DNA of 64,000 nucleotides. It comes from Martinezella lusitana. Lineage in GTDB: Bacteria > Pseudomonadota > Alphaproteobacteria > Rhizobiales > Rhizobiaceae. The stretch covers positions 372,001 to 436,000 of the forward strand of contig NZ_WUEY01000002.1 in assembly GCF_010668395.1 (NCBI RefSeq), given 5' to 3'. Shown piece by piece: positions 37,951 to 64,000 of the stretch; the first letter of the stretch is position 1, and each line of letters opens with the position of its first letter. A program made the translations under genes and the position numbers. A model generated the notes under the pieces. It saw only the letters and a list, made by a program, of their open reading frames with translations. It had not been told where the DNA came from and ran no database searches.

Positions 37951-37960
37951 GGCCGTCGCC

Positions 37961-41931: not shown

Positions 41932-41991
41932 TGCGGAACTCCGGAGACGGGCACGTCGTGCCTCGCCAGATCAGATCATCGCGTCGGGCCG

Positions 41992-42029
41992 GTGCCCGGC
42001 CCTGCCGTCGAAAGGACAGGGCCGGGCAC
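41992..42029 (-). promoter_or_regulatory. Intercistronic hairpin between livK and livH
   Basis: GTGCCCGGCCCTG and CAGGGCCGGGCAC form a perfect 13-bp stem with a 12-base loop, just after the livK stop. No T-run follows, so it probably protects livK mRNA and allows partial read-through. Confidence 0.7.
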
Positions 42030-42037
42030 ACGCGCCA

Positions 42038-43219
42038 TTACTTGGCCTTCGCCAGCGTGTACCAATCCGGCGTCTTGACAGTCCACTTGCCATCGACGAG
42101 CTGCATGATCTTGGTGGCCTTCATCGGCGAGTGAGCCCGGGCGTCACCGAAGACATAGGGGCTGCCGGCCAGCGAATAATGCAGCTCCTTGCCTTCCTTC
42201 AGCGCGGATGTCACCGCATCGCGGCTCACTTCGCCATCGATGCCGGAGATCGTGTCGATCATGACCTTGGCGGCGAGATAGCCGCCCTGCGAAAAGGCAG
42301 TCTTCGGCAGACCGGCCTTGTCCATGGTCTTGATCCAGTCGGCGTTCGCGTCGTTGTTTTCCGTATAGGGCTCCCATTCGGTTCCGACATAGATCGGCTG
42401 CTTGCTGTCGGCCAGCGCCTTGGCGACGCCTTCGGTGTAGCCGGGTGCTAGGAACAGCCAGTTGATGCCGGAAATCTTCTGGGCATCGGCGGTCTTCACC
42501 CATTGCACGACGCCCGGCTCGACCTGATTGGTGAGCACGGCATCGCAACCGGCGTCACGCGCCTTGATGACATAAGGCGTCAGATCACCCTGCGGCGGCA
42601 GGGTCATGTCGACCAGGCCGACATTGTTGCCGCTCATCTTCTGCCATGCCGCGACCGCGTTGCCATAGGCTTCCTGCGTGCCGCCGAGGATCAGGAAGAA
42701 AGCGCAGACCTTCTTTGCCCCGAGGTTCTTCGTCGCATAATCGAGCATGACCGTGGTCAGCGTAAAGGGGCCGACGTTCACGGGCGAGATGCTCGGTGCG
42801 TTGAAGCAGAGGGGATCGACGCCGACACCCTGAACCGAGAGCACGTCGTTGCGGTTGTACGTTCCCGCATTGACGGCGCAGTCGAGCAGGCTCGCGCCGC
42901 CCGCGAGCGCCACGACGCCCTTGTTGTCGATGAGGTCGCGTGCGGCCTGGGCTGCCACCTGCGGATCACCCTTGTCGTCGGCGAGCGAGTATTCGATCTT
43001 GCAGCCGTTGATGCCGCCCGCGTCGTTCAACTGCTCGAAGACAGCCTTGGTGGCCTTCGGCGCGTCGGAAAAGTCGACCACGCCCGTAACGGTCGAGACG
43101 GCCCCGATCTTGATCGGCCCGTCCTTGCAGGTCGGGCCGGCCGCAAAGGCGGACGATCCCGTAAATGCCAGGCCGGCGGCCGCCAGCCCCAGAGCAATGA
43201 ATGCTGATCTCAATTTCAT
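42038..43219 (-). CDS. livK: Periplasmic LivK-type binding protein
   Basis: A 393-residue type I periplasmic binding protein with a Sec signal peptide (cleavage likely after SSAFA, residue 26). The mature part starts with IKIGAVSTVTGVVDF and has the two-lobe pattern of branched-chain/amide binding proteins; C-terminal DGKWTVKTPDWY. The ligand is not evident: the co-transcribed amidohydrolase suggests an amide or N-acyl amine rather than leucine. It lies 50 bases after the amidohydrolase gene. Confidence 0.9.
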   Translation of the reverse strand: MKLRSAFIALGLAAAGLAFTGSSAFAAGPTCKDGPIKIGAVSTVTGVVDFSDAPKATKAVFEQLNDAGGINGCKIEYSLADDKGDPQVAAQAARDLIDNKGVVALAGGASLLDCAVNAGTYNRNDVLSVQGVGVDPLCFNAPSISPVNVGPFTLTTVMLDYATKNLGAKKVCAFFLILGGTQEAYGNAVAAWQKMSGNNVGLVDMTLPPQGDLTPYVIKARDAGCDAVLTNQVEPGVVQWVKTADAQKISGINWLFLAPGYTEGVAKALADSKQPIYVGTEWEPYTENNDANADWIKTMDKAGLPKTAFSQGGYLAAKVMIDTISGIDGEVSRDAVTSALKEGKELHYSLAGSPYVFGDARAHSPMKATKIMQLVDGKWTVKTPDWYTLAKAK

Positions 43220-44931: not shown

Positions 44932-45306
44932 TGATCTGTTCCCGCTTCGGTTCATTATTCGAACCACTTATTCAAATATTAGGGTGATGCAGACCGACAC
45001 GTTTGTCAATATAGTTCACACGTTAATTATATCGGCGACGATGGCAATCGACTGTGGAAATCCGATCGAATATGCCCAACGACGGTCGAGACTTCGAAGC
45101 CGGAGCACGCGCAACTGACAAGACAGCCACCATCGGCACCGACAGCCATCGGGCGGCAGCCCATGAAATCCGTCGTCTGAGGAAGCGTCCTCATTGTCAT
45201 ATGTCTGGCGTCGGTGACGAAGGGCCGTATAAATGCCGGTGAGCCGGTCGACGGGCTTGTTCGCAAAGCCCCGTAAATCAGGCCGGCAGCTCGCCGAGGA
45301 GTTTCC
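44932..45306. other. Divergent intergenic region, amidohydrolase and NIPSNAP genes
   Basis: 375 bases. The left part holds the shared promoter module (44949-45026). On the right, from about 45040 to 45306, I see no frame or strong palindrome; the promoter of the NIPSNAP gene should be there. Confidence 0.5.
44949..45026 (-). promoter_or_regulatory. Shared two-part control module upstream of the amidohydrolase-liv operon
   Basis: Element A at 44949-44966 reads GGTTCATTATTCGAACCA, followed four bases on by TTCAAATAT (44971-44979). Element B at 45015-45026 is TTAACGTGTGAA on the minus strand. Exactly 35 bases separate them, with TTGACA on the minus strand five bases after B. The same arrangement occurs at 52823-52900. 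Confidence 0.7.
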
Positions 45307-49686: not shown

Positions 49687-51165
49687 TCAGAGCTGGATCC
49701 ATGCCGTCTTCAGGTCGACATACTTATCGAGCGCGTGCAGCGACTTGTCGTGGCCGTTGCCGGATTGCTTGACGCCACCGAGCGGCACGCTGTTATCGGC
49801 GCCGCCATAGGTGTTGACATGCACCACGCCGGCGCGGATCCCACGCACCATCCGGTGGGCGCGCGACAGGTTGGACGTCCACACGGCCGAGGCCAGGCCG
49901 TATTCCGTGGCATTGGCGATCTGCAAGGCCTCCGCCTCCGTCTCGAAAGGTATGATCGACAGGATCGGCCCGAACACCTCTTCGCGTGCCAGGGTCATGG
50001 ATTGCGTCACCTCAAACACCGCAGGCCGCATGTAGTAGCCGCCGGTCTCCTCGAGAATGCGCGAACCGCCGGTGCGCAGCGACGCGCCCTCCGACACCGC
50101 CTGCGAGATAAAGCCGAGATCCTTCTTCAGCTGGATCTCGCTGGAAATGGCACCTGCTTCCGTCGTCAGCTGCAGCGGGTCTCCGACCTTCATGCTCTCG
50201 GCGATGCGAGCGACCTTCTCGGAGAAGGCGGCGTGGATCGACTTTTCGACGAGCAGCCGCGAACCGGCGACACAAACCTGCCCGGAATTGCGGAAGATAC
50301 CATAGGCCGACACCTTGGCCGCCTGATCGAGATCGGGCGCATCGGCAAAGACGATGTTCGGAGACTTGCCGCCAAGCTCCAGATAGACGCGCTTCAGGTT
50401 CGAGCGCGCCGAATACTCCAGAAGCCGGCGTCCGACGGGGCCGGAGCCGGTGAAGGCGAGGACGTCGACTTCCATATGCAGTCCGAGCGCCTCGCCGCAG
50501 ACCGCGCCGCGCCCGGTGACGACGTTGAGTACGCCTTCAGGCAAGCCGGCTTCCGTGCAAATTTCGGCAAGCCGCAGCAGCGTCAGCGACGCGCCTTCGG
50601 CGGGTTTCAGCACCACGGAATTGCCGGCGGCAAGCGCCGGGGCAATCTTCCAGGCGCCGATCATCATCGGGAAATTCCATGGCACGATGGCGGCCACGAC
50701 GCCGATAGGCTCGCGATGGACGAGACCCAGAATATTCTGCGCCGTCGGTGCGATCTCTCCATAGACCTTGTCGATCGCCTCGGCATAGTAGCGGAAGGTG
50801 CCTGCGGCACTGCCGGGTTCGGCCTTCAGCGCCATCGAGATTTCCGTGCCATTGTCCCTTACGCCGAGCACGGCCAGTTCGAGCGCGTTCTTCTCGATCA
50901 GTTCGGCAATCTTCAACAGAACTTTCTTGCGCTCCGCCGGAGCGGCTTTCGACCAGCTGCCCTTTTCGAAGGCATGACGTGACGCCTTGACGGCAAGATC
51001 GACATCTTCGGTGCCGGCATCGGCAATCGTGGTCAGCCTCGTTCCGTCGATCGGCGAAATGACATCCATGGCAGCGCCGCTGACCGGCTGGCGCCAGGCG
51101 CCGCCGATGAACAATGCCTGCGGGGCAACGGATAATGTCCGGAGCTGGTCGATCTTGTCCTGCAT
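49687..51165 (-). CDS. Aldehyde dehydrogenase, PuuC-like
   Basis: A 492-residue NAD(P)-dependent aldehyde dehydrogenase. Catalytic Cys lies in NSGQVCVAGSRLL near 300 and the general-base Glu in YLELGGKSPNIVF near 265; VPWNFPMMIGAWKIAPALAAG near 155-175 is the cofactor-binding region. Similar enzymes oxidise gamma-glutamyl-aminobutyraldehyde, other amine-derived aldehydes and phenylacetaldehydes. It follows an amine-type permease gene by 75 bases and has a shared regulator, so a role in oxidising the aldehyde made from the imported amine (for example 4-hydroxyphenylacetaldehyde) is likely but inferred. Confidence 0.88.
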   Translation of the reverse strand: MQDKIDQLRTLSVAPQALFIGGAWRQPVSGAAMDVISPIDGTRLTTIADAGTEDVDLAVKASRHAFEKGSWSKAAPAERKKVLLKIAELIEKNALELAVLGVRDNGTEISMALKAEPGSAAGTFRYYAEAIDKVYGEIAPTAQNILGLVHREPIGVVAAIVPWNFPMMIGAWKIAPALAAGNSVVLKPAEGASLTLLRLAEICTEAGLPEGVLNVVTGRGAVCGEALGLHMEVDVLAFTGSGPVGRRLLEYSARSNLKRVYLELGGKSPNIVFADAPDLDQAAKVSAYGIFRNSGQVCVAGSRLLVEKSIHAAFSEKVARIAESMKVGDPLQLTTEAGAISSEIQLKKDLGFISQAVSEGASLRTGGSRILEETGGYYMRPAVFEVTQSMTLAREEVFGPILSIIPFETEAEALQIANATEYGLASAVWTSNLSRAHRMVRGIRAGVVHVNTYGGADNSVPLGGVKQSGNGHDKSLHALDKYVDLKTAWIQL

Positions 51166-51240: not shown

Positions 51241-52695
51241 TCAGGCTTCCTGGCCGGCACCGAGGCGGGCATAGCTTGCCGCATCCGACGACTTCAGGCG
51301 AGCCGCGGCGATAAATCCGACGATCGCCGCGATCAGCACGAGCCCCGGCAACACTACGGCAAGCGCGCCATTGGCACCGGCAATAGCGCCGAAGTTCGCC
51401 GAGATATAGTAGACGAGCGCGAGAAGGATCAGACCCGTTACGATCGGCAACACCTTGATCGCCAGCACGTTGCGCTCAAGCCCCGGATTGCGGCTGAAGA
51501 ACGCCACGATCGAGAAGGCGGTGAACGCCATCAGCAGGATGATTGCCAGCGTGGCGACATTGGTGAGCCAGGAGAAGAGCGCCAGCACCGGATCCTGACC
51601 CGTCACCGCAAACAGCGTAACCACCAGCACGGCGATGACGGTCTGAATGATCGAACCGACATGCGGGCTCTGGAAGATCGGATGCGTGACGCCGACCGAC
51701 TTCGGCAGCAAGCCCTCGCGACCGGCGACATACATGTAACGCGCCACGCCATTGTGGAAGGCGAGGATGCCGGCAAACAGGCTGGTGATGAAAAGAACGC
51801 TCATCACGACGGTGATCCAGTGGCCGACATAGCGCTCGGCAAGGCCGAAGAGGAAGGTCGTCGGATCGGCAAGGCCCTGCAGGGTCGGAACGAGCTTGTC
51901 GACGCCGGCGCCGGCCACCATCAGCCAGGAGGTCAGCATATAAAAGAGGCCGATGATGAGAACGGAAATGTAGGTCGCGCGCGGCACGGTCTTTTCCGGC
52001 TCACGAGCCTCCTCGCTGTAGATGGTCGTTGCCTCGAAGCCGATGAAGGCAGCAAAGCAGAAGAGGAGACCGATGGCCGGCGTTCCGCTCCAGAAGGCCG
52101 TAGGCGTGAAGGGCGCGGCAGAAAGACCTGCATCGCCGCCCTTCACGAAAATAGCAGCGTCGATGACGAGCACGACGACATATTCAAGAATGACGAGCAC
52201 CGTCAGCACCTTCGCCGATAGATCGACCCGACGGTAGCCGAAAACGGCGACGAAGGCGACGCCGATATAGCTCCAGACCCACCAGGGGAGATCGATGCCG
52301 AGCTGATCGGCAAAGAACCCCTTGGTTGCCGCGCCAAAGAGCCCGAGAACGCCGACCTGCATGGCATTATAGGCAAGGATGGCGATCAGGGCGGCCGCGC
52401 CGCCCATGAGGCCGCCAAGGCCTTGAGCCGTGTAGGCATAGAAGGCGCCGGCATTGCGGATATGGCGAGCCATGGCGACATAGCCGACCGCAAACAGCAA
52501 CAGAATGCCCGTCACCAACAGGAAGGTGAGCGGTATGCCCGGTCCATTGCCGAGCATCATGGAGAGCGGCACGCCGCCGGCAACCGCCGTCAGCGGCGCT
52601 GCGGCCGAAACGACCAGAAAGGTCACGGCACCCACGCCGAGACTGTTCTTGCGCAGCTGGTTTTCAGCCGCGCCTTGCGAATTTTGTGTGTTCAT
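51241..52695 (-). CDS. APC-family amino acid/amine permease
   Basis: A 484-residue transporter with 12 or more predicted helices, of the amino acid-polyamine-organocation superfamily. Conserved text: LGVGAVTFLVVSAAAPLTAVAGGVP at residues 20-45, GAFYAYTAQGLGGLMGGAAAL near 85-105, and the motif CFAAFIGFEATTIYSEEAREPEKTVPRATY near 218-245. It imports an amine or amino acid by proton symport. Its promoter module is the same as that of the amidohydrolase-liv operon and lies next to the IclR gene. The substrate is not set by the sequence. Confidence 0.92.
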   Translation of the reverse strand: MNTQNSQGAAENQLRKNSLGVGAVTFLVVSAAAPLTAVAGGVPLSMMLGNGPGIPLTFLLVTGILLLFAVGYVAMARHIRNAGAFYAYTAQGLGGLMGGAAALIAILAYNAMQVGVLGLFGAATKGFFADQLGIDLPWWVWSYIGVAFVAVFGYRRVDLSAKVLTVLVILEYVVVLVIDAAIFVKGGDAGLSAAPFTPTAFWSGTPAIGLLFCFAAFIGFEATTIYSEEAREPEKTVPRATYISVLIIGLFYMLTSWLMVAGAGVDKLVPTLQGLADPTTFLFGLAERYVGHWITVVMSVLFITSLFAGILAFHNGVARYMYVAGREGLLPKSVGVTHPIFQSPHVGSIIQTVIAVLVVTLFAVTGQDPVLALFSWLTNVATLAIILLMAFTAFSIVAFFSRNPGLERNVLAIKVLPIVTGLILLALVYYISANFGAIAGANGALAVVLPGLVLIAAIVGFIAAARLKSSDAASYARLGAGQEA

Positions 52696-53012
52696 CTGCG
52701 TTGGTTCCCCTTGTTTAAGAACATCCGATCATCGCTGCGACGGTGCGCAGGCGACCTCCACCAAAACCGGACTGACGAGCGGGGTTTATGCTTTTGTTGA
52801 TTTTGCCGTCGTCAGCGCTTACGGTTCATTATTTGAACCACAGCTTCAAATATAGACTTGCAAACATTCCTGACCTCTGTCAAGTTATTTCGCATGTTAA
52901 GTATCTTGGGTCGCTGCTATCGTGCTGCGGCGCAGGGTCAGCGACCTGATTTGACGAAAGGCCCCGGCTGGACGCACAAAATCGGAAGCTGACCAACCCA
53001 AGAGGAGGAACG
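52696..53012. other. Divergent control region between permease and IclR genes
   Basis: 317 bases, AT-rich from 52820 to 52905. It holds the second copy of the shared module. Outside this I see a ribosome site (AGAGGAGGAACG) before the IclR gene and no frame. Confidence 0.6.
52823..52900 (-). promoter_or_regulatory. Shared two-part control module upstream of the permease operon
   Basis: Element A at 52823-52840 is GGTTCATTATTTGAACCA (perfect arms GGTTCA and TGAACC), with TTCAAATAT four bases on (52845-52853). Element B at 52889-52900 is TTAACATGCGAA on the minus strand. The gap is 35 bases, exactly as at 44949-45026, and again TTGACA follows B by five bases. Confidence 0.75.
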
Positions 53013-53798
53013 ATGAGCACGATCGGAAAGGCGCTTGCATTGCTGGACACCCTGTCACGGCTGGACAAGGAGGCGGGTCTGACCGACATCGCCCGCCTGT
53101 GCGCGCTGGACAAGGCGACGGCACGCCGCTTTCTGGTGGAGCTGGAAAAGTACGGCTTCGTCGAGCAGGATCTGGAGACGCGCCGATATCGCATCGGCTC
53201 TGCGCCGGTTCGCCTCGCACGCATCCGCGAAGCCCGCTTTCCGCTGCTGCGGATTGCCATCCCCTTTATCAGGACGCTCGCCGAATCATCGACGGAGACC
53301 GTGCATCTCTCGGAATTCTCGGGTGGACGGCTTTCGACCGTTCATGTGGAGGATTCGCCGCGCGCCCACCGCATCATCGTCGATGTCGGCAGCCTTCTGC
53401 CCCTTCACGCCACTGCATCCGGCCTTGCATTCCTCGCCTTCTGCCCACAGGCGGAGATCGAGGAAGCGCTTGGAAAGCCGCTCGAGCAATTTACCGACCA
53501 CACCGTCGTCGATCCGCAGCTGCTGCGCGCGATGCTCGATGAGACGGCGGCACGCGGCTTTTCCATCAGCCATCAGGGCCTCGAGGCCGGCGTCATCAGC
53601 ACGGCCGCGCCGGTGCGCACGCCCAATGGCCATCCGATTGGCTGCGTGGCGATTGCCGCCCCTCTCTCCCGCACCTCGAAGACGGCCATCCAGGAACTGG
53701 GCGCGCAGGCCGTCGCCGCGGCCAATGCGATCTCAGAAAAATATTATGGGTCGGAAAGACCCATGGGAACCATTCCAAAAATCAGGAGGACAGATTGA
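53013..53798 (+). CDS. IclR-family transcriptional regulator of the amine/HPA region
   Basis: A 261-residue IclR protein: winged helix-turn-helix at residues 1-70 (LTDIARLCALDKATARRFLVEL) and the ligand-binding domain with LLPLHATASGLAFLAFCP near 130-147 and GVISTAAPVRTPNGHPIGCVAIA near 190-212. It is divergent from the permease operon and first in the operon that continues with the Tm-1-like gene, whose ATG overlaps its TGA by one base. Elements B and A in the shared region are its likely target sites. IclR proteins can activate or repress; the ligand is probably an aromatic acid or aldehyde of the pathway (inference). Confidence 0.9.
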   Translation: MSTIGKALALLDTLSRLDKEAGLTDIARLCALDKATARRFLVELEKYGFVEQDLETRRYRIGSAPVRLARIREARFPLLRIAIPFIRTLAESSTETVHLSEFSGGRLSTVHVEDSPRAHRIIVDVGSLLPLHATASGLAFLAFCPQAEIEEALGKPLEQFTDHTVVDPQLLRAMLDETAARGFSISHQGLEAGVISTAAPVRTPNGHPIGCVAIAAPLSRTSKTAIQELGAQAVAAANAISEKYYGSERPMGTIPKIRRTD

Positions 53799-55051
53799 TG
53801 AGCCCTGAGGCTTCCCTGCCGAGGATACTCGTCATCGGAACCGGTGACACCAAATGCGACGAACTGCAATTCATGGCATCCGTCATAGAGGAAGCCGGCG
53901 GCCAGCCGGTCATGATGGATGTCAGCATTCTCGGCGATCCACCCTACACTCCCGATTATTCCAAGCATGATATAGCCAAGGCCGCCGCGACCACCATCGG
54001 GGAAATCACCGAAAGCGGCGATGAAAACAGCGCCATGGCAGCCATGGCGAAGGGCGCATCGGCTCTGACCCGGCGTCTCTATGAGGACGGACAGGTCGAC
54101 GGCGTGATCGTGCTCGGCGGCTCGATGGGCACGGATCTGGCGCTCGATGTCGCCGCGGTCCTGCCGCTCGGCGTCCCGAAATTCGTGGTCTCCACCATCG
54201 CCTACTCCCATCTCATTCCACCCGAACGTATCGCCCCGGACCTGATGATGATCCTGTGGGCCGGCGGTCTCTATGGTCTGAACAGTATCTGCCGTTCTGT
54301 CCTGTCGCAGGCCTGCGGCGCGGTCGTAGGAGCGGCAAAGCATGGCAGCAGGCCCGATCACAAGCGCCCGCTCGTCGGCATGACCTCGCTCGGCTCGTCC
54401 TGCCTGAAATACATGAAATATCTGCGGCCCGAGCTTGAAAAGCGCGGTTATGACGTTGCCGTGTTCCACTCCACCGGCATGGGCGGACGAGCCTACGAAG
54501 CGATCGCCTCCCAGGGCGGCTTTGCTGCCGTCTTCGACTTCTGCATCCAGGAAGTCAGCAATCATCACTACGGCTCCGTGGTCACCTCCGGACCGGACAG
54601 ACTCGAGAATGCCGCCCGCGCCGGCATTCCGCAGATCGTCGCGCCCGGCGCAGTCGACATGGTCGATCTTCAGGCTTGGCAGGCACTCCCGGAGATTTTC
54701 GCCGACCGTCCGTATCACGCCCATAACCGGCTGATCGGATCGGTAACGACATCGCCGGAGGGGCGCCGCGAAGTCGCCCGCTTGATCGGACAGAAGCTCG
54801 CACGCTCCGACGCGAGGATCGCCTTCCTGCTGCCGACCGAAGGGTTGCAGGAATGGGACAAGCCGGATGAGCCGCTGCATGACCCGGAAGGCCTCGACGC
54901 TTTTCTCGATGAGATGCGGCACGCCATTCCATCCTCCGTCGCCCTGCAGGAAGTCGATGCCCATATCAACGCGCCGGCCTTCTCCGCCGCCGCACTCGCC
55001 ATCTTCGACACCTGGGTCGCAGAGGGCGTCATTCCGGAGGGACGGCCATGA
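53798..55051 (+). CDS. Tm-1-like ATP-binding domain protein (UPF0261)
   Basis: A 417-residue protein of the UPF0261/Tm-1-like family. Family text: LVIGTGDTKCDELQFMASVIEEAGG at the start, VIVLGGSMGTDLALDVAAVLPLGVPKFVVST near 105-135, and GMTSLGSSCLKYM near 192-205. In plants the N-terminal Tm-1 domain binds viral replicase; in bacteria the role is unknown. The usual bacterial partner, a TIM-barrel protein, is not present here. Its start overlaps the iclR stop by one base and its end overlaps the HAD gene by four, so all three are coupled. Confidence 0.85.
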   Translation: MSPEASLPRILVIGTGDTKCDELQFMASVIEEAGGQPVMMDVSILGDPPYTPDYSKHDIAKAAATTIGEITESGDENSAMAAMAKGASALTRRLYEDGQVDGVIVLGGSMGTDLALDVAAVLPLGVPKFVVSTIAYSHLIPPERIAPDLMMILWAGGLYGLNSICRSVLSQACGAVVGAAKHGSRPDHKRPLVGMTSLGSSCLKYMKYLRPELEKRGYDVAVFHSTGMGGRAYEAIASQGGFAAVFDFCIQEVSNHHYGSVVTSGPDRLENAARAGIPQIVAPGAVDMVDLQAWQALPEIFADRPYHAHNRLIGSVTTSPEGRREVARLIGQKLARSDARIAFLLPTEGLQEWDKPDEPLHDPEGLDAFLDEMRHAIPSSVALQEVDAHINAPAFSAAALAIFDTWVAEGVIPEGRP

Positions 55052-55698
55052 CAAAGGAACGTGCTCTTATCCTCGACTTCGGCGGCGTCGTCACCCGCAC
55101 CCTGTTCGAAACGCACGACATCACCGAACGCACGCTCGGACTTCCGAAGGGGTCGCTGACCTGGCTCGGACCGTTCGATACGACGACGGACCCGCTCTGG
55201 GTCGCGATGCAGAACCGCGAGATCACCGAACGGGACTATTGGCTGACGCGCACCGGCGAGGTCGGCAAAATGGTCGGCGAAAACTGGACCGACATGCAGA
55301 CCTTCGTGCGCCGGGCGCGCGGCGCCGAGCCGGAACTGGTTCTGCGTCCCGAAGCCCGCGACGCCATCCTGCGCGCCAAGGAGGCCGGTCTCAAGCTCGC
55401 CATCCTGTCGAACGAACTCGACCTGTTCTACGGCGTCGAGTTCCGCGAGCGTTTTCCGCTGATCGACCTTTTCGACGTCATCGTCGATGCCACCTACACG
55501 AAGATCCTCAAGCCCGATCCGCGCGCCTACGAACTCGTTCTTTCCGAGCTCGACCTGCCGCGCGAGGCCTGCGTCTTCGTGGACGACCAGAAGAAGAACA
55601 TCGAAGGCGCCGAAGCCGTCAATCTGCCCTATGTGCATTTCGACGTGACCCGACCTGCCGAAAGCTATGCCCGCGCACTTGCCCTGCTGGGGCTCTGA
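55048..55698 (+). CDS. HAD-superfamily hydrolase
   Basis: A 216-residue HAD phosphatase/dehalogenase-type protein. Motif I is LILDFGGVV (nucleophile Asp, with Gly in place of the second Asp as in YihX-type enzymes), motif II SNELDLFYG, motif III Lys in ILKPDPRAYEL, motif IV VDDQKKNIEGAEA. It may dephosphorylate a phosphorylated intermediate made by the kinase in this operon, or recycle a dead-end product. Coupled to the Tm-1-like gene by a four-base overlap. Confidence 0.88.
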   Translation: MTKERALILDFGGVVTRTLFETHDITERTLGLPKGSLTWLGPFDTTTDPLWVAMQNREITERDYWLTRTGEVGKMVGENWTDMQTFVRRARGAEPELVLRPEARDAILRAKEAGLKLAILSNELDLFYGVEFRERFPLIDLFDVIVDATYTKILKPDPRAYELVLSELDLPREACVFVDDQKKNIEGAEAVNLPYVHFDVTRPAESYARALALLGL

Positions 55699-55714
55699 AC
55701 CAAGAGGAATCGAC

Positions 55715-57070
55715 ATGCGTGAAACCAATTTCATCATCGAAAACAATGCCCGCCACCTGTGGCACCCGATGGCTCACCCGGCCGAAATGCAGGCACATCC
55801 GCCGCGCATCGTCAATTCCGGCGAAGGCGTCGAGATCGTCGATATTCAAGGCAAGAAGGTGCTGGACGCCGTCGGCGGCCTGTGGAACGTCAATCTCGGC
55901 TACTCCTGTGAACCGGTAAAGAAGGCAATCCGCGACCAGCTCGACGAGCTTCCTTATTATTCGACCTTCCGCGGCACGACGAACTCGCCGCTGATCGAAC
56001 TGTCCTACGAGCTTGCCGAATGGTTCAAGCCGGATGGATTGAGCCGTTCCTTCTTCACCTCGGGCGGTTCGGATTCGGTCGAGACCTGCCTGCGGCTGGC
56101 GCGCCAGTACCACAAGGTCAACGGCCAGCCGGAGCGCACCAAGTTCGTCGCGCTGAAGAAGGGCTATCACGGCACGCATTTCGGTGGCGCCTCCGTAAAC
56201 GGCAACCAGAATTTCCGCCGCAACTACGAGCCGCTGCTTCCGGGCGTCATCCACCTGCCCGCCCCGTTCACCTACCGCAACCCGTTCAACACCACCGACG
56301 GCGCGGAGATTGCCGCTGCCATCGGCAGGCTCTTCGAGGATGAAATCGCCTTCCAGGGCGCCGACACCATCGCCGCGTTGATCGTCGAACCGGTGCTGGG
56401 TGCCGGTGGAGTCATCGTCCCGCACGAGACCTTCCTGCCGCTGATGCGCGAGATCTGCGATCGTCACGGCATCCTGCTGATCGCCGACGAGGTCATCACC
56501 GCCTTCGGCCGCACCGGTGCCTGGACCGGATCGCGCCTCTGGGGTGTCAAGCCGGACATGATGTCGACTGCGAAGGCCATCACCAACGGCTATTTCCCCT
56601 TCGGCGCCGTGATGATCTCCGACAAGGTCGCCGAGGCCTTCGAGAGCAACAAGAACTCGGTCGGCAACATCGGCCACGGTTACACCTATTCCGGCCATCC
56701 GGTGGGCGCCGCCGCAGCGCTTGCGACATTGAAGGAAACCAGGAAGCTCGACGTGGCCGCCAATGCCGCTGCCCGCGGAGAAGAGCTGCTGGCCGGATTG
56801 AAGGCGTTGCAGAACAAGCATGAATTGATCGGCGACGTGCGCGGCAAGGGCCTGATGTGCGCCATCGAACTCGTCAGCGACCGGGCGAAGAAGAGCGGAG
56901 CTGCCAAGGACGTCGTCCAGAAAGTCCATGACGCGACGTATGAGGCCGGCGTCATGGTCCGCACGTCCGGCGCCAACGTCATCATGTCGCCGCCGCTGAT
57001 CGTGACGGCCGGGGATGTCCAGACGATCCTGACCGCGCTCGACGCAGGTCTCGCCGCCGCGAGGGCCTGA
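55715..57070 (+). CDS. Class III PLP-dependent aminotransferase
   Basis: A 451-residue omega-aminotransferase-type enzyme. The PLP lysine is Lys287 in MSTAKAITNGYFPFG and the cofactor Asp is in LIADEVITAFGRTG near 255-269. The family moves an amino group from an amine or omega-amino acid to pyruvate or 2-oxoglutarate. In this operon it could deaminate a simple phenylethylamine such as tyramine, or a related amine, to the aldehyde. Start at 55715 behind AAGAGGAAT. It is followed with a one-base overlap (TGATG) by a second PLP enzyme. Confidence 0.9.
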   Translation: MRETNFIIENNARHLWHPMAHPAEMQAHPPRIVNSGEGVEIVDIQGKKVLDAVGGLWNVNLGYSCEPVKKAIRDQLDELPYYSTFRGTTNSPLIELSYELAEWFKPDGLSRSFFTSGGSDSVETCLRLARQYHKVNGQPERTKFVALKKGYHGTHFGGASVNGNQNFRRNYEPLLPGVIHLPAPFTYRNPFNTTDGAEIAAAIGRLFEDEIAFQGADTIAALIVEPVLGAGGVIVPHETFLPLMREICDRHGILLIADEVITAFGRTGAWTGSRLWGVKPDMMSTAKAITNGYFPFGAVMISDKVAEAFESNKNSVGNIGHGYTYSGHPVGAAAALATLKETRKLDVAANAAARGEELLAGLKALQNKHELIGDVRGKGLMCAIELVSDRAKKSGAAKDVVQKVHDATYEAGVMVRTSGANVIMSPPLIVTAGDVQTILTALDAGLAAARA

Positions 57071-58356
57071 TGATGTCCGACAATGCAACCCTTATCGCGC
57101 GACGCGAGCGGCTTCTCGGCCGGAACATGTCGCTCTTCTACGACGACCCGGTGCATCTGGTGCGCGGCGAAGGCGTCTGGCTCTGGGACGCCGATGGCCG
57201 CAAGTATCTGGACTGCTACAACAATGTGCCGCATGTCGGCCATTGCCATCCCCGCGTGGTCGAGGCGATCACGCGGCAGGCCTCGACGCTCAACACGCAT
57301 ACCCGCTACCTGCATGAAGGCATTCTCGACTACGTCGAGCGGCTGACGGCGACCTTCGACAAGAGCCTCAATGCCGCGATCCTGACCTGCACGGGCAGCG
57401 AGGCGAACGACGTGGCCTTGCGCATGGCGCAGGCGGTGACCGGCAAGACGGGCGTCATCGCCACCAACCACACCTACCACGGCAATACGGCCGCGGTGTC
57501 GCAACTGTCGACCCGCATGCCCCCGGTCGGAGGCTTTGGCGGCCATGTCCGGCATGTGCCGGCGCCGGATAGCTACCGTCCGCTCGGCGGTGAAGGCGGA
57601 GACGCCTTCACCACGGCTTTCGCAGCCGAAGTCGAGAAGGCGATCGCCTCGCTTCAGGACAGCCCGCACGGCTTTTCGGCCATCATCATCGATCCGTTCT
57701 TCGCCAATGAGGGCTTCCCGGATCTGCCGCCGGGCTTTCTGGACAAGACAGTCGCAGCCGTCCGCAAGGCGGGTGGCCTCGTGATTACCGACGAGGTGCA
57801 GCCTGGTTTCGGCCGCACCGGCTCGCATATGTGGGGCCATCAGCACGCCGGCATCGTCCCCGACATCGTGACGCTCGGCAAGCCGATGGCCAACGGCCAT
57901 CCGGTCGGCGGCGTCATTGCCAATGTCGATACGATAAACGCCTTCCGCAAGGCGTTCCGCTACTTCAACACCTTCGGCGGCAATCCGGTCTCCTGCGCGG
58001 CGGCCATGGCTGTGCTCGACGTGATCGAAGACGAAAACCTTCTCGAGAACGCCCGCAACGTCGGCGAGTACACGCGCGACGCGTTCGATCGGCTTGCCGA
58101 AAAGCATTCGATCATCGGCGACGTGCGCGGCAGCGGCCTCTTCATGGGCACCGAATTCGTGCTGGACAGGCAGACGAAGGAACCGGCCGCCGCACAGGCG
58201 ACCAGGATCGTCAATGAAATGCGCGAACGCGGCGTGCTGATGGGCAAGATCGGCATTCACCAATGCGCCACGAAGATCCGCCCGCCCATGCCGTTCACCA
58301 GGGAGAATGCCGACTTCATGTTGTCGATTTTCGACGACGTCCTGTCCGGCCTGTGA
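57070..58356 (+). CDS. Class III PLP enzyme, likely amino-alcohol-phosphate phospho-lyase
   Basis: A 428-residue PLP enzyme. Lys271 lies in VTLGKPMANGHPVGGV and the cofactor Asp region is VITDEVQPGFGRTGSHMWGH, a combination close to AGXT2 and to ethanolamine-phosphate and phosphohydroxylysine phospho-lyases. N-terminal text (DCYNNVPHVGHCHPRVVEAI) also fits that branch. Those enzymes remove phosphate and ammonia from an O-phosphorylated amino alcohol, giving an aldehyde. An APH-fold kinase gene follows after seven bases, exactly the partner such an enzyme needs. Plain transamination cannot be ruled out. ATG at 57070 or 57073. Confidence 0.75.
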   Translation: MMSDNATLIARRERLLGRNMSLFYDDPVHLVRGEGVWLWDADGRKYLDCYNNVPHVGHCHPRVVEAITRQASTLNTHTRYLHEGILDYVERLTATFDKSLNAAILTCTGSEANDVALRMAQAVTGKTGVIATNHTYHGNTAAVSQLSTRMPPVGGFGGHVRHVPAPDSYRPLGGEGGDAFTTAFAAEVEKAIASLQDSPHGFSAIIIDPFFANEGFPDLPPGFLDKTVAAVRKAGGLVITDEVQPGFGRTGSHMWGHQHAGIVPDIVTLGKPMANGHPVGGVIANVDTINAFRKAFRYFNTFGGNPVSCAAAMAVLDVIEDENLLENARNVGEYTRDAFDRLAEKHSIIGDVRGSGLFMGTEFVLDRQTKEPAAAQATRIVNEMRERGVLMGKIGIHQCATKIRPPMPFTRENADFMLSIFDDVLSGL

Positions 58357-58363
58357 GGCAAGC

Positions 58364-59383
58364 ATGGCTGATCAGTTGCCGCAGACCATCCGCGACGCTC
58401 TGCAGAAGCGTGCGCTGGAGGCACTCGACCATTGGCCGGTAAAGGCCGACGAACCTGTCCTGATGAAATATCGGGAGAATGCCGTCTTTCGCATTACGCT
58501 CGCGGACGGACAGTTCGCGGCGCTCAGGCTGCATCGGCCGGGCTACCACGACGAGACGAGCCTGCGCTCGGAACTGCATTTCATGGCCGCCCTCAAGCTC
58601 GGCGGCCTCGATGTGCCGAGTCCGGTGCCGACGAGCGACCGGCAGAGCCTCGTCCGCCTTCCGGCCAACAGGCATTTCGCCGAACAGCATGCCGACGTGG
58701 TGAGCTGGATCGATGGCGTTCCGCTCGGGCAGAGCGGGACACCGCTCTCGCAATCGGCTGACATGCAGACAAGGGTCTTCTTCCGCATCGGTCACAGCAT
58801 GGCCACCATGCATGAGCTTGCCGACGCCTGGAGACCGCCGGAGCGGTTTCGCCGCCCGGCATGGAACACCGAAGGCCTGGTGGGAGAGAAGCCGCTTTGG
58901 GGACGGTTCTGGGATTGCCAAGGCCTTTCGCCCGATAACGCCGCCGCGCTCTCGGCATTGCGCGGCGAGCTGCGCCGCGCCCTTGCGAACGCGGACAGCC
59001 GAAACCTCGACTATGGGCTGATCCATGCCGATCTCGTGCGGGAAAACATCTTCCTGACGGGAAATGACAGCAATGTCGCCTTCATCGATTTCGACGATGC
59101 GGGGCATGGCTTCCGCCTGTTCGATCTCGCGACGACCTTGCTCAAGAACCGCAGGGAACCCGCCTATCCGGCAATCGAGGAGGCGCTGATATCTGGTTAT
59201 CGCAGCCGCCGTGCGCTCTCCGACGCTGCCTTGGCAAGCCTGCCGCTCTTCATGGTGCTGAGAAGCCTCACCTATATCGGATGGCTCGCCGAGCGCCCGG
59301 AAATTCCGGACGCCGCGGAACGCCTGTCGCGCTACGTCGACGAAAGTCTGGAGATGGCAAGAAAGCTCGATACGGCTGCTTGA
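58364..59383 (+). CDS. APH/hydroxylysine-kinase-like phosphotransferase
   Basis: A 339-residue protein kinase-like-fold small-molecule kinase. Catalytic loop: LIHADLVRENIFL with His221, Asp223 and Asn228; the metal Asp is in AFIDFDDAGHGF near 242-244. In this family are homoserine, choline, ethanolamine and hydroxylysine kinases. Next to a phospho-lyase-like PLP enzyme it probably phosphorylates the hydroxyl of an amino alcohol with ATP. Its ATG at 58364 lies seven bases after the PLP enzyme's stop. It ends the operon; the hpa genes begin 54 bases later with their own control site. Confidence 0.85.
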   Translation: MADQLPQTIRDALQKRALEALDHWPVKADEPVLMKYRENAVFRITLADGQFAALRLHRPGYHDETSLRSELHFMAALKLGGLDVPSPVPTSDRQSLVRLPANRHFAEQHADVVSWIDGVPLGQSGTPLSQSADMQTRVFFRIGHSMATMHELADAWRPPERFRRPAWNTEGLVGEKPLWGRFWDCQGLSPDNAAALSALRGELRRALANADSRNLDYGLIHADLVRENIFLTGNDSNVAFIDFDDAGHGFRLFDLATTLLKNRREPAYPAIEEALISGYRSRRALSDAALASLPLFMVLRSLTYIGWLAERPEIPDAAERLSRYVDESLEMARKLDTAA

Positions 59384-59400
59384 CATCTTTCGTATAATTG

Positions 59401-59412
59401 TTAACGTGTTAA
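59401..59412. promoter_or_regulatory. Operator-like TTAACGTGTTAA before hpaF, third copy of element B
   Basis: A TTAAC/GTTAA inverted repeat 25 bases before the hpaF start, the same core as element B at 45015-45026 and 52889-52900. TATAAT (59393-59398) lies just upstream, so a protein bound here could block the promoter. Confidence 0.6.
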
Positions 59413-59437
59413 GTAAATAAGGGATCGGGAGGACTCA

Positions 59438-59824
59438 ATGCCACATCTCGCCATCGAGTATTCGGCCAATCTGGAAGGCCGCGCCGATATCGGCGCGCTC
59501 TGCGAGCGGCTGTTGAAGACGGTTCTGGAGACCGGCCTTTTCGAGGTCGGCGCCGTGCGTGTTCGCGCCTTTCGCGCCGATCATTATGCCATCGCCGACA
59601 GGCTGCCCGAGAATGCGTTCGTCGATCTGAACTTCCGCATCGGGAAAGGCCGAACAGACGATGAGAAAAAGCGCACCGGCGAAGCAATTTTCGCCGCGGC
59701 CATCGACGTTCTGAGCCCGCTCTTCGAGACGCCGCATTTCGCCCTGTCGCTGGAAATCCGCGAGATCGACGCGGAGCTGAGCTGGAAGAAGAACGCCATC
59801 CATCCGCGGCTGCGCGGCAAGTGA
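59438..59824 (+). CDS. hpaF: 5-Carboxymethyl-2-hydroxymuconate isomerase
   Basis: A 128-residue tautomerase-superfamily enzyme. It has the catalytic N-terminal Pro (after Met removal, PHLAIEYSANL), and SADH-like family text FVDLNFRIGKGRTDDEKK near 68-85. It isomerises 5-carboxymethyl-2-hydroxymuconate in the homoprotocatechuate pathway. GGGAGGACT precedes the ATG. First gene of the meta-cleavage operon; hpaE follows after 43 bases. Confidence 0.9.
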   Translation: MPHLAIEYSANLEGRADIGALCERLLKTVLETGLFEVGAVRVRAFRADHYAIADRLPENAFVDLNFRIGKGRTDDEKKRTGEAIFAAAIDVLSPLFETPHFALSLEIREIDAELSWKKNAIHPRLRGK

Positions 59825-59867
59825 CACCTCCCCTTGGCGGGACGACATAACACCAAAGGAATAGACG

Positions 59868-61385
<1,518 letters not shown>

Positions 61386-61425
61386 GCCGCCAATATAGAT
61401 AAAGACGCATAAAGAGGAGGAACCC

Positions 61426-62406
61426 ATGCCCCTGCCGAAACCCAATCTCTATCCGCCCTTCAACATCGTGCGCCTCAGCCATGTCGAATTCGGCGTCACC
61501 GATCTTGCCAAATCGCGCGCCTTCTATGTCGACACGCTCGGCCTGCAGGTGACGGACGAGACCGCCGATACCATCTACCTTCGGGCACTCGAGGAACGCG
61601 GCCACCATTGCATCGTGCTGAAGAAGTCCGACAAGGCGGAAGCCCGCGACCTCGGCTTCAAGGTGTTCGGCGACGAAGACCTCGACAAGGCGGCGCATTT
61701 CTTCAAGGGCAAGGACCTGCCGGTCGAATGGGTCGAGCGCCCGTACCAGGCGCGGACGTTCCGCACCCGCGATCCGCACGGCATACCGCTTGAATTCTAT
61801 TCGAAGATGGACCGGCTGCCGCCGATCCATCAGAAATACGCCCTCTACAAAGGCGTGAAGCCGCTGCGCATCGACCACTTCAACTGCTTCTCGACCAATG
61901 TCGACGAGAGTGTCACCTTCTACAACGAACTCGGCTTCCGCGTCACCGAATACACCGAGGACGCAGAAACGGGTCGTCTCTGGGCTGCCTGGACGCATCG
62001 CAAGGGCGGCGTCCACGATATCGCCTTCACCAACGGCCGCGGGCCGCGCCTGCACCACACCGCATTCTGGGTGCCGACGCCGCTGAACATCATCGACCTG
62101 CTCGACCTGATGGCGACCACCGGCTGGGTTTCCAACATCGAGCGCGGACCGGGGCGCCACGGCATCTCCAACGCCTTCTTCCTCTATATCCTCGATCCGG
62201 ACGGCCACCGCATCGAAATCTACTGCTCGGACTATCAGACGGTCGATCCCGATCTGGAGCCGATCAAATGGGATCTCAAGGACCCGCAGCGCCAGACACT
62301 TTGGGGCGCACCCGCTCCCAAATCCTGGTTCGAACATGGTAGCGTGTTTTCCGGTGCGGAAGTGGCGGAGCCTGACCTGAAGGCACAGCCGATTATCGCG
62401 CCTTAA
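61426..62406 (+). CDS. hpaD: 3,4-Dihydroxyphenylacetate 2,3-dioxygenase
   Basis: A 326-residue type I extradiol dioxygenase with two vicinal-oxygen-chelate domains (about 15-130 and 145-270). Metal ligands are His151 (RIDHFNCF), His210 or 211 (LHHTAFW) and Glu264 (HRIEIYC), as in the Brevibacterium/Arthrobacter homoprotocatechuate enzymes. It opens the ring of 3,4-dihydroxyphenylacetate beside the two hydroxyls. This is the VOC-type enzyme, not the type II form seen in enteric HpaD. GAGGAGGAACCC before the ATG. Confidence 0.93.
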   Translation: MPLPKPNLYPPFNIVRLSHVEFGVTDLAKSRAFYVDTLGLQVTDETADTIYLRALEERGHHCIVLKKSDKAEARDLGFKVFGDEDLDKAAHFFKGKDLPVEWVERPYQARTFRTRDPHGIPLEFYSKMDRLPPIHQKYALYKGVKPLRIDHFNCFSTNVDESVTFYNELGFRVTEYTEDAETGRLWAAWTHRKGGVHDIAFTNGRGPRLHHTAFWVPTPLNIIDLLDLMATTGWVSNIERGPGRHGISNAFFLYILDPDGHRIEIYCSDYQTVDPDLEPIKWDLKDPQRQTLWGAPAPKSWFEHGSVFSGAEVAEPDLKAQPIIAP

Positions 62407-62474
62407 GCGTTACCCTTGAGAGCGGGCGAGAAACGCCCGCTCCTCATCAACGTTCGCGAGGCGAGGAGGCATTC

Positions 62475-63929
62475 ATGCATTTGAAAGACGCAACATTGTT
62501 CCGGCAGGCAGCATTGGTCGGGGGCGAGTGGATCGAGGCCGATCCCTCTCATGCGATCAAGGTCGACAATCCGGCAACCGGCGAGATCATCGGGCTTGTT
62601 CCCAATCTGGGTGCCGCCGAGACGAAAAAGGCGATTGCCGCGGCCGAGATCGCCCAGAAGGAATGGGCCGCCCGCACCGCCAAGGAGCGCTCCGGCATCC
62701 TCCGGCGCTGGTTCGAGCTGATGATGGAGAACCAGGACGATCTCGGGCGCATCCTGACCGCCGAACAGGGCAAGCCGCTTGCCGAGGCCAAGGGCGAGAT
62801 CGCCTATGGTGCGAGCTTCGTCGAATGGTTCGCCGAAGAGGGCCGCCGCGTCTATGGCGACATCATCCCCGGCCACCAGAAGGACAAGCGCATTCTGGTC
62901 ATGAAGCAGCCGATCGGCGTCGTCGCGGCCATCACCCCCTGGAACTTTCCGAATGCGATGATCACCCGCAAGGCCGGCCCTGCCTTTGCCGCCGGCTGCG
63001 CCATGGTGCTGAAGCCGGCCTCGCAGACGCCGTTCTCCGCAATCGCCATCGCCATCCTCGCCGAGCGCGCCGGCCTGCCGAAGGGCTTGTTCAGCGTGAT
63101 CACGGGTTCGGCTCGCGCCATCGGCGCCGAGATGACCGCAAGCCCGGTCGTGCGCAAACTCACCTTCACCGGCTCGACCGAAGTGGGTGCCGAGCTTTAC
63201 AAGCAGAGCGCGCCGACCATCAAGAAGCTGGGCCTCGAGCTCGGCGGCAATGCGCCCTTCATCGTCTTTGACGACGCCGATCTCGATGCCGCCGTCGAAG
63301 GCGCGCTGATCGCCAAGTTCCGCAACAACGGCCAGACCTGCGTCTGCGCCAACCGTCTCTACGTGCAGGACGGCGTCTATGACGCTTTTGCCGAGAAGCT
63401 GTCCAAGGCTGTCGGCTCGCTCAAGACCGGCAACGGCTTCGACGAGGGCATCAATCTCGGCCCGCTGATCGACGAGGCAGCTCTTGCCAAGGTCGAGGAG
63501 CATGTCGCCGACGCCCTTTCCAAGGGCGGCCGCATCGTCGCCGGCGGTCATCGCCACCAGCTCGGCGGACGCTTCTACGAGGCGACCGTGCTCGCCGATG
63601 TCACGCCATCGATGGCCGTCGCCAGGGAAGAGACCTTCGGGCCGGTCGCTCCGCTCTTCCGCTTCAAGGACGAGGCCGATGTCATTACCCAGGCCAACGA
63701 CACCGAGTTCGGCCTTGCCTCCTATTTCTATGCCAAGGATCTCGCCCGCGTCTTCCGGGTCGCCGAGGCGCTGGAATACGGCATGGTCGGGGTCAATACC
63801 GGCCTGATCTCGACGGCCGAAGCCCCCTTCGGCGGCGTCAAGCTCTCCGGCCTCGGCCGCGAGGGGTCCCGCTACGGCATCGAGGAATTCACCGAAATCA
63901 AATATGTCTGCCTCGGCGGCGTCGTCTGA
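62475..63929 (+). CDS. gabD: Succinate-semialdehyde dehydrogenase
   Basis: A 484-residue NAD(P)-dependent aldehyde dehydrogenase of the GabD type. Catalytic Cys is in NNGQTCVCANRLYVQ, Glu in GLELGGNAPFIVF, with TPWNFPNAMITRKAGPAFAAGC as the cofactor region. Succinic semialdehyde is the end product of homoprotocatechuate cleavage, so the gene completes the pathway by making succinate. It follows hpaD after 68 bases in the same direction. The gene symbol is by function; gabD paralogues are common. Confidence 0.9.
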   Translation: MHLKDATLFRQAALVGGEWIEADPSHAIKVDNPATGEIIGLVPNLGAAETKKAIAAAEIAQKEWAARTAKERSGILRRWFELMMENQDDLGRILTAEQGKPLAEAKGEIAYGASFVEWFAEEGRRVYGDIIPGHQKDKRILVMKQPIGVVAAITPWNFPNAMITRKAGPAFAAGCAMVLKPASQTPFSAIAIAILAERAGLPKGLFSVITGSARAIGAEMTASPVVRKLTFTGSTEVGAELYKQSAPTIKKLGLELGGNAPFIVFDDADLDAAVEGALIAKFRNNGQTCVCANRLYVQDGVYDAFAEKLSKAVGSLKTGNGFDEGINLGPLIDEAALAKVEEHVADALSKGGRIVAGGHRHQLGGRFYEATVLADVTPSMAVAREETFGPVAPLFRFKDEADVITQANDTEFGLASYFYAKDLARVFRVAEALEYGMVGVNTGLISTAEAPFGGVKLSGLGREGSRYGIEEFTEIKYVCLGGVV

Positions 63930-63956
63930 GGCTAAGGGAAGGCCCGAGATAAAAGC

Positions 63957-64000
63957 ATGACCCATCCAAGATTCCTGTCTTTTTCGAGAAACGGCCGTCA
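63957..64000 (+). CDS. hpaG: Start of a probable hpaG (fumarylacetoacetate hydrolase family), cut by window edge
   Basis: Only 14 full codons are visible (MTHPRFLSFSRNGR), with AAGGGAAGG upstream. The start resembles rhizobial fumarylacetoacetate hydrolase-family proteins, and HpaG (decarboxylase/isomerase) is the missing next step of the pathway. Assignment depends mainly on context. Confidence 0.45.
   Translation, partial: MTHPRFLSFSRNGR

Follow-up and report, generated by a model that had tools for sequence, protein, structure and literature searches.

In Erwinia, an ethanolamine / 1-aminopropan-2-ol kinase is combined with an amino-alcohol-phosphate phospho-lyase. Activities degrading octopamine and synephrine were described decades ago; octopamine dehydratase (EC 4.2.1.87) and synephrine dehydratase (EC 4.2.1.88) were described as acting by direct dehydration without ATP, and we know of no genes assigned to either. 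In this work we analysed a 64,000-nucleotide stretch of the Martinezella lusitana genome, referred to as the window (C33:372001-436000 of 7.75 Mb), in which an APH-fold kinase (KIN) and a phospho-lyase-like class-III pyridoxal phosphate (PLP) enzyme (PHL) share an operon with hpa genes of 4-hydroxyphenylacetate catabolism. Among named bacteria, Rhizobium species of the tropici group come closest, with a kinase identity of 86-89% for R. tropici, R. hainanense and R. multihospitium; PHL of R. tropici CIAT 899 is 95.5% identical. We consider it likely that this operon serves to break down beta-hydroxylated phenethylamines, octopamine being the first candidate; they would pass through the kinase and the phospho-lyase into the hpa route. 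A kinase/phospho-lyase route into hpa catabolism is well supported by comparative genomics, whereas octopamine as its exact substrate is a prediction. The locus had been singled out in an earlier reading of the sequence (the original prediction), whose observation was confirmed and whose interpretation is partly supported.

The phospho-lyase-like enzyme and its kinase

PHL (57070..58356, plus strand) and KIN (58364..59383, plus strand) are separated by a gap of 7 bases. The two had been predicted to be coupled, with the motifs LGKPMANGHPV and DEVQPGFGRTG in the PLP enzyme, and both motifs are present in PHL. The top solved relatives of PHL, 5g4i (E 4.9e-120, 405 bits) and human ETNPPL, 6tor (E 1.3e-107, 364 bits), are both phospho-lyases; the next solved family is dialkylglycine decarboxylase (E 2.8e-58), and other class-III enzymes scored 201 bits or less. 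In a 58-row tree (115 rows before thinning), PHL fell into a 48-row group (support 100/99) together with 5g4i and a second stand-alone phospho-lyase type (PHL2), separate from the transaminase of the operon and the two fused kinase-lyase proteins of the own genome. PHL lies inside a 34-row clade (99/97) that excludes 5g4i; support is lower (88/84) for the fork that links 5g4i with this side.

The catalytic Lys271 of PHL was kept in all aligned rows. Asn52, Arg79 and His58 are common to PHL and 5g4i and absent from the operon's transaminase, and these three residues may define the phospho-lyase family. Residues T135, N213, P217 and H257 of the 34-row clade differ from those of the 5g4i and PHL2 rows. 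The phospho-lyase-like character claimed for the PLP enzyme was borne out by its grouping with solved phospho-lyases, and PHL, which resembles amino-alcohol-phosphate phospho-lyases in sequence, is predicted to release phosphate and an aldehyde from an O-phosphoamine with no need of an amino acceptor. The motif TCTGSEAND, considered as a signature of the cassette, proved not to be diagnostic because it is present also in PHL2 enzymes and in Sinorhizobium chiapasense L147. The own genome encodes three more members of the phospho-lyase family: one in a stand-alone pair (C33:572368, 52%) and two fused proteins of about 1000 residues each (C33:479906 and C22:701123).

KIN matches PF01636 (E 9e-25) with 88.2 bits against a cut-off of 23.2. 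It carries the motifs HxDxxxxN and IDFDD, whose residues H221/D223/N228 and D242/D244 are invariant in ten of ten aligned relatives. Its best solved match, 6ef6, is named merely aminoglycoside phosphotransferase, and none of the six NCBIfam models listed reached its cut-off (best, homoserine kinase, 55.5 bits versus 271). KIN is more variable than PHL: in Rhizobium L053 the proteins are 58% and 95% identical to those of the window, respectively, and in L053, L050 and L051 together the kinase is 58-60% identical and the adjoining phospho-lyase 91-95%. This gap suggests replacement of the kinase or tuning of its specificity, and it is possible that in these three loci KIN was swapped with a change of substrate or stereochemistry.

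To follow the pair in relatives, contigs were scanned with an alignment of ten kinases; 170 stretches matched, 120 of them encoding relatives, and the best 80 loci were kept. Presence was called by tblastn (at least 40% identity, half of the query covered; some stretches stop at contig ends), since the GC3-based open reading frame picker misses or mislabels some genes, among them the kinase genes of L050, L051 and L102. PHL stood beside KIN in 78 of these 80 loci. Such constant pairing bears on the possibility that PHL is an ordinary transaminase of tyramine or dopamine and that the kinase acts on an unrelated substrate such as a sugar or homoserine. PHL does belong to Pfam Aminotran_3, and the best, if weak, NCBIfam match of KIN is the homoserine kinase model mentioned above. 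However, a true omega-transaminase is already present in the operon, and PHL, nearest to phospho-lyases, keeps the three residues shared with 5g4i. We regard this explanation as highly unlikely.

Association with hydroxyphenylacetate catabolism

KIN is followed on the plus strand by hpaF (carboxymethyl-hydroxymuconate isomerase, 59438..59824; PF02962, 161 bits; NCBIfam PRK15031, 76.5 bits, below the cut-off of 215), hpaE (CHMS dehydrogenase, 59868..61385; TIGR02299, 783.4 bits, above 638), hpaD (homoprotocatechuate 2,3-dioxygenase, 61426..62406; TIGR02295, 417.5 bits, above 321) and a gabD-type succinate-semialdehyde dehydrogenase gene (62475..63929; NF008415, 853.2 bits, above 828). The adjoining position of these four genes agrees with the original prediction. 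The start of hpaG (63957..64000; FAH-type, PF01557) is the last feature of the window; hpaH and hpaI follow outside it, in stretch L009, which reaches past the window end (window coordinate = L009 position + 60000), and both of their products are above NCBIfam cut-offs. The homoprotocatechuate set HpaD, E, F, G, H and I is present in full, D, E, H and I by NCBIfam cut-offs, F and G by Pfam alone. As predicted, hpaBC genes also lie in the window, at 36364-38473 on the plus strand: an hpaB-like gene for the oxygenase of 4-hydroxyphenylacetate 3-hydroxylase (36364..37950; TIGR02310), whose 758.7 bits stay below the equivalog cut-off of 885.2, and an hpaC-like flavin reductase gene (37961..38473; PF01613, E 1.4e-36; scanned as 37958-38473, the start being our choice).

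The proposed tie between kinase/phospho-lyase and hydroxyphenylacetate catabolism held up in several families and in different gene orders. hpaE was found in 60 and hpaF in 61 of the 80 loci, and 60 loci had at least two hpa genes (at least 50% identity) within about 10 kb of KIN. In 16 of the other 20, hpaE (85-92% identical) was present elsewhere in the genome. Among 37 genomes tabulated for the genus, 13 had KIN and hpaE, two had hpaE only, 22 had neither and none had KIN only (Fisher p 2.9e-8, relatedness ignored). In the tropici group KIN stands immediately before hpaF, in Sinorhizobium/Ensifer (L098, L099, L104, L116) and in Rhizobium L053 hpaBC lies between KIN and the remaining hpa genes, in Mesorhizobium (L134, L135, L137-L142) the hpa genes are on the strand opposite to the pair, and in Shinella L145 they are divergent from UPF0261. 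Ruegeria AD91A (L148) has hpaD-E-F and hpaR beside genes for a transaminase, a TTT transporter, an aldehyde dehydrogenase, PHL, KIN and UPF0261. L182, from another family of the class, has a minimal operon, hpaF-E-D-G-H-I-PHL-KIN-marR-hpaB (marR read by eye), with no transaminase in that stretch. It shows that KIN and PHL can be linked to the hpa route by themselves. These observations support that KIN, PHL and hydroxyphenylacetate catabolism travel together in Rhizobiaceae, Phyllobacteriaceae, Labrys and some Rhodobacterales.

Relatives carry additional modules. A PLP decarboxylase gene was found close by in 21 of the 80 loci and in L145, where it lies between hpaD and hpaG. Among solved structures, the L145 enzyme is closest to DOPA decarboxylase (6e-116), followed by tyrosine decarboxylase (2e-100); the decarboxylases of the other loci share 72-92% identity with it. 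Decarboxylases of this type point to phenethylamines; their products would be tyramine or dopamine, which gives the transaminase a job. In Rhizobium L050 and L051, KIN is followed by an insertion with genes for an amidase and an MFS transporter (by eye). A gene like that of dimethylglycine dehydrogenase (DMGDH), suited to N-demethylation, is present in L150 and L207.

Plasmid pSfreNXT3a of S. fredii NXT3 has PHL and KIN with ETF, ETF-QO, folD, purU, a transaminase, HAD, an aldehyde dehydrogenase, UPF0261, a protein nearest to DMGDH and another nearest to histamine dehydrogenase. Its ring genes are hmgA, FAH, maiA, an acetoacetyl-CoA ligase gene and a flavoprotein hydroxylase gene with a 68-residue DUF2783 neighbour. 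MhaAB, a 3-hydroxyphenylacetate 6-hydroxylase, consists of a flavoprotein and a 60-residue coupling protein encoded near hmg genes, according to PMC3053370. The pSfreNXT3a hydroxylase and its DUF2783 neighbour may be likened to MhaAB by description, not by sequence, and the plasmid reads as a route for an N-methyl meta-hydroxyphenylethanolamine, phenylephrine-like. Mesorhizobium M8A has three differently equipped KIN/PHL copies: a full cassette with hpaBC-FEDGH, a pSfreNXT3a-like one beside hmgA, and one with a 48% identical DMGDH-like gene and hpaF-E-D-G-H 15-20 kb away. Because KIN and PHL stand here with DMGDH-like, ETF, folD and purU genes and a route of the MhaA/HmgA type, it seems that in NXT3 and M8A the acid product is again a hydroxyphenylacetate and is degraded through another ring route, unrelated to the first. 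In S. chiapasense L147, PHL is accompanied by a DMGDH-like protein, ETF, folD and purU; as the kinase there is choline-kinase-like and no aromatic genes were seen in the stretch, it was not counted as an aromatic case.

Farther away, 34 of the 385 class genomes gave a KIN match (E up to 1e-25), as did 19 of the 398 phylum genomes (E up to 1e-35), the own genome included. Twenty stretches were fetched from the class-wide and nine from the phylum-wide matches; L228 and L229 are loci counted already and were not recounted. PHL stood beside the kinase in 12 of the 20, among them L182 with its hpa genes, L180 with a DMGDH-like gene, UPF0261, TctA and IclR, and L187 with transaminase, aldehyde dehydrogenase, TctA, IclR and UPF0261 and without hpa. 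Two of the nine phylum-wide stretches were Mesorhizobium loci already counted, L224 held the cassette without hpa, L223 was ethanolamine-type, L225-L227 held the pair only and L230 was PHL2-like; PHL was not found in L231. Plasmids of Ruegeria pomeroyi (L143), Gemmobacter (L144) and Paracoccus (L146) carry the pair and a transaminase gene (only 34% alike in L146); their stretches contain no hpa operon. Rhizobiales and some Rhodobacterales thus show a strong aromatic link, which is not seen in many distant pairs.

Eight loci of the PHL2-like type served as control. They had no hpa operon nearby (the L194 stretch is only 7 kb long), and L060 gave single hpaE-like and DMGDH-like matches at 39-40%. 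In genome G586 (L223), KIN and PHL lie beside phenylacetyl-CoA (paa) genes. Its permease is ethanolamine-permease-like (318.9 bits, cut-off 381.75) and its regulator EutR-like (101.8 bits, cut-off 319), and its PHL groups with 5g4i (SH-aLRT 82), not with the clade of the window. This locus was rejected as a third ring route and read as an ethanolamine module, which was not counted. The contrast with the PHL2 controls, which lack hpa, and with the G586 pair and its ethanolamine-type neighbours argues that the cassette-bearing KIN/PHL pairs have a substrate of their own.

The same loci bear on another explanation, by which KIN and PHL serve an aliphatic amino alcohol (ethanolamine, aminopropanol or N-methylethanolamine) released together with hydroxyphenylacetate from a conjugate, the operon being shared and the molecules separate. 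It draws on the solved relatives of PHL, which are ethanolamine-phosphate enzymes (6tor by its name, 5g4i as we take it), on the amidase or amidohydrolase genes near the pair, on the G586 proteins, both below their NCBIfam cut-offs, and on several pairs in other Alphaproteobacteria without aromatic neighbours. However, the G586 enzyme belongs outside the clade of the window, the hpaB-I operon is missing near all eight PHL2-like loci, an amidohydrolase gene occurs in only 12 of the 80 stretches, and the DOPA-decarboxylase-like genes point to phenethylamines. An aliphatic substrate is, in our judgement, unlikely, and we prefer a beta-hydroxylated phenethylamine.

Gene layout and predicted regulation

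The genes, their order and their family membership were read directly. The plus-strand operon runs IclR, UPF0261, HAD, omega-transaminase, PHL, KIN, hpaF-E-D, gabD and, past the window end, hpaG-H-I; from IclR to hpaI neighbouring genes overlap or are at most 68 bases apart. The unit originally reported is real and larger than reported, as it also includes UPF0261, HAD, the omega-transaminase and hpaG-H-I. Upstream of PHL lie the genes for an IclR-family regulator (53013..53798; PF01614, PF09339; in 67 of the 80 loci), a UPF0261/Tm-1-like protein (53795..55051; PF06792, PF23189; 70 loci), a HAD-family hydrolase, possibly a phosphatase (55048..55698; PF00702, E 1e-18; 72 loci), and a class-III omega-transaminase of the PRK07481 subfamily (55712..57070; NF005683, 779 bits, cut-off 575; 74 loci), which is predicted to accept tyramine-type amines. 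UPF0261 was also kept with the cassette in two Ruegeria (L143 and L148); a search of the literature, which covered its sources in part, turned up no published function for it, and its link with the cassette may give a lead to its role.

The original prediction placed a permease and an aldehyde dehydrogenase right beside this unit. Both are present, outside the range that it gave and divergent from the operon on the minus strand: an APC-family permease, the predicted amine importer (51241..52695; PF13520, E 6e-29; in 65 of the 80 loci), and the aldehyde dehydrogenase (49687..51165; PF00171; 67 loci), whose nearest solved relative is KauB (E 2.7e-159) and which reached the cut-off of none among the 25 NCBIfam models listed. 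A cytochrome P450-like gene lies near the cassette in L079, L086, L106, L134, L138, L141 and L142 and also in L048, L050 and L051, in L079, L050 and L051 just beyond the aldehyde dehydrogenase gene; the Pfam check covered that of L079.

An alignment of 61 permease/IclR intergenic sequences had the palindrome GGTTCA-N5-TGAACC in common, which was present with at most one mismatch in 63 of the 67 IclR-bearing loci (56 perfect). In the window the gap that separates the divergently read permease and IclR genes contains the box, GGTTCATTATTTGAACC, with a half-site, TTCAAATAT (52823..52853, plus strand). The 17-base palindrome has its sole perfect genome match in this box at 52823. The short palindrome is less specific, with 19 genome sites at up to one mismatch (control, 2) and, in the window, three matches at up to two mismatches versus 1.75 expected. 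The 31-base extended box, a pattern built from the same two sites that it finds, has exactly two genome copies at up to three mismatches, both in the window, and none with the reversed pattern as control. The second copy (44949..44979, plus strand) is located 17 bases upstream of the likely start of an amidohydrolase gene (Amidohydro_3, 43270..44931, minus strand; PF07969, E 5e-87; scanned as 43270-44928, the start at 44931 being our choice). This is the first gene of an operon running into a branched-chain-type ABC transporter (38662..43219, minus strand; PF00005, PF02653, PF13458), made up of an ATPase (38662-39363), a permease/ATPase fusion (39360-41114), a permease (41062-41931) and a binding protein (42038-43219).

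The box was found with at most one mismatch upstream of the amidohydrolase gene in all 12 relatives whose stretches hold that gene, and in L102 and L103 the ABC transporter adjoins IclR-PHL-KIN. Because the box repeats before their operon, here and in relatives, the amidohydrolase and the ABC transporter are probably part of the system. It is likely that IclR controls the divergent cassette and the amidohydrolase/ABC operon through the shared box; that an N-acylated amine is the imported form is a guess. Promoter and terminator scans yielded no more than shuffled sequence did. The amidohydrolase gene directly adjoins that of the aldehyde dehydrogenase in some relatives (L063, L070).

With an amino-acid-type permease and a branched-chain-type ABC transporter in the likely regulon, the substrate might be thought to be a beta-hydroxylated aromatic amino acid, of the beta-hydroxytyrosine type, instead of an amine. 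By pathway logic, however, elimination from such a compound would give 4-hydroxyphenylpyruvate and not the aldehyde needed by the aldehyde dehydrogenase and the hpa route, and the solved relatives of PHL use phosphoethanolamine (PMC8154272 for ETNPPL), a compound without alpha-carboxylate. This makes an amino acid extremely improbable, and an amine remains the preferred substrate.

Other features of the region were noted. After hpaI and a 166-base gap, SDR, MoaF-like and SnoaL-like genes follow outside the window (L009:6617-8600; SDR, MoaF and SnoaL_2 family matches), each in 17-19 of the 80 loci. Between both IclR-box operons (45805-49259) lie a CHASE2-adenylate cyclase gene and a gene for a FecR-domain protein with a histidine-rich tail. 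A 703-residue protein with an N-terminal ADP-ribosylglycohydrolase domain (23598-25709) is encoded in what by eye is a LacI/ABC sugar-uptake cluster (19489-26812). In L102 and L112, PHL-KIN lies near genes resembling those of cobalamin biosynthesis, with no hpa genes within 10 kb; L102 also has IclR and amidohydrolase/ABC.

The proposed route and its relation to known systems

In the route that we propose, KIN would phosphorylate the benzylic hydroxyl of octopamine, and PHL would eliminate phosphate and ammonia from O-phospho-octopamine to leave 4-hydroxyphenylacetaldehyde. The aldehyde dehydrogenase would oxidize this to 4-hydroxyphenylacetate, HpaBC would convert it to homoprotocatechuate, and meta-cleavage by HpaD-E-F-G-H-I with GabD would end in pyruvate and succinate. 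Non-hydroxylated amines (tyramine, dopamine) would probably enter in parallel through the adjoining omega-transaminase. Noradrenaline could enter in the same way as octopamine, bypassing HpaBC. Octopamine and noradrenaline as substrates, and the order and direction of every step, are to be taken as predictions, as is the regulation. The original prediction had also listed synephrine. A secondary N-methyl amine cannot form a PLP aldimine before demethylation. No N-demethylating dehydrogenase was among the genes read in the cluster, and the DMGDH-like proteins of the own genome, 31-41% alike, are encoded on other contigs. For these reasons synephrine is an unlikely substrate of the window copy.

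Several points weigh against this route. As 5g4i (presumably) and 6tor are ethanolamine-phosphate enzymes, sequence alone gives no aromatic substrate. The nearest solved relative of the aldehyde dehydrogenase, KauB, is not a phenylacetaldehyde dehydrogenase, and the route leaves HAD, UPF0261 and the amidohydrolase unexplained. The 80 loci are not independent, being the best of 120 with many close relatives among them, and in four of them (L096, L107, L112 and L132) hpaE was not found in the genome; two of the four, L096 and L132, come from short contigs, that of L096 with hpaF on it. In the remaining nine of the 12 class-wide stretches with PHL (L181, L183-L186 and L188-L191, two of them on short contigs) no further gene of the query set was found, except for a weak amidase match in L191. 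The 34-row clade is not uniformly aromatic, since L181, L185, L188, L143, L144 and L146 lie inside it. In L188, L225, L226 and L227 the pair stands beside genes resembling, by eye, those of nicotinate phosphoribosyltransferase and nicotinamidase, and a different role of the pair is possible there.

Taken more broadly, and with about even chances of being right, the data could describe a plug-in system by which Alphaproteobacteria of soil, root and sea use amines of the octopamine/adrenaline/phenylephrine class, with KIN and PHL as core and swapped modules around it; it would then be the genetic basis of the octopamine and synephrine 'dehydratase' activities. The modules would be an IclR-controlled importer with amidohydrolase, an aromatic decarboxylase plus transaminase for a tyramine-type feed, tetrahydrofolate-based N-demethylation for N-methyl amines, and ring cleavage through homoprotocatechuate (para-hydroxyl) or homogentisate (meta-hydroxyl). 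If so, bacteria remove octopamine by phosphorylation and elimination paid for with ATP, not just by amine oxidases or a direct dehydratase, and sister copies do likewise for synephrine-, adrenaline- or phenylephrine-like amines. The small phospho-lyase family would widen from ethanolamine and hydroxylysine to aromatic amines of the neurotransmitter type, and the octopamine- and synephrine-degrading activities would have candidate genes. The system also points to a way for root-associated rhizobia to make use of plant amines, and it offers a directly testable operon with a predicted regulator box. The phosphorylation/elimination step for octopamine-like amines has apparently not been described before: a literature search, with most subscription papers outside its coverage, gave nothing on octopamine with phospho-lyase, nor on octopamine with 4-hydroxyphenylacetate and homoprotocatechuate.

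The operon is an aromatic version of the known amino-alcohol kinase/phospho-lyase route. It shares with the Erwinia-type ethanolamine/aminopropanol route a separate kinase beside a class-III PLP enzyme, from which O-phosphorylation and then 1,2-elimination to an aldehyde would be expected, whereas the window pair is embedded in hydroxyphenylacetate catabolism, belongs to the 34-row clade with its differing residues and would be expected to have an aromatic substrate. Hydroxylysine kinase with 5-phosphohydroxylysine phospho-lyase (AGXT2L2/PHYKPL) sets a chemical precedent, its phosphate being carried by a substituted carbon adjacent to CH2-NH2; in contrast, the substrate of that system is an aliphatic amino acid, and we know of no hpa link. 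The lower pathway is the same as in the hpaBC/hpaDEFGHI pathway of 4-hydroxyphenylacetate, which in the operon of the window is preceded by the amine module. The SDR and MoaF-family pair after hpaI is reminiscent of the Klebsiella monoamine regulon moaEF, whereas the arylsulfatase and amine oxidase of the latter are not among the genes read in the operon. Finally, the net products would be those of EC 4.2.1.87 and 4.2.1.88, 4-hydroxyphenylacetaldehyde and ammonia or methylamine, but they are predicted to arise in two steps, by phosphorylation and elimination.

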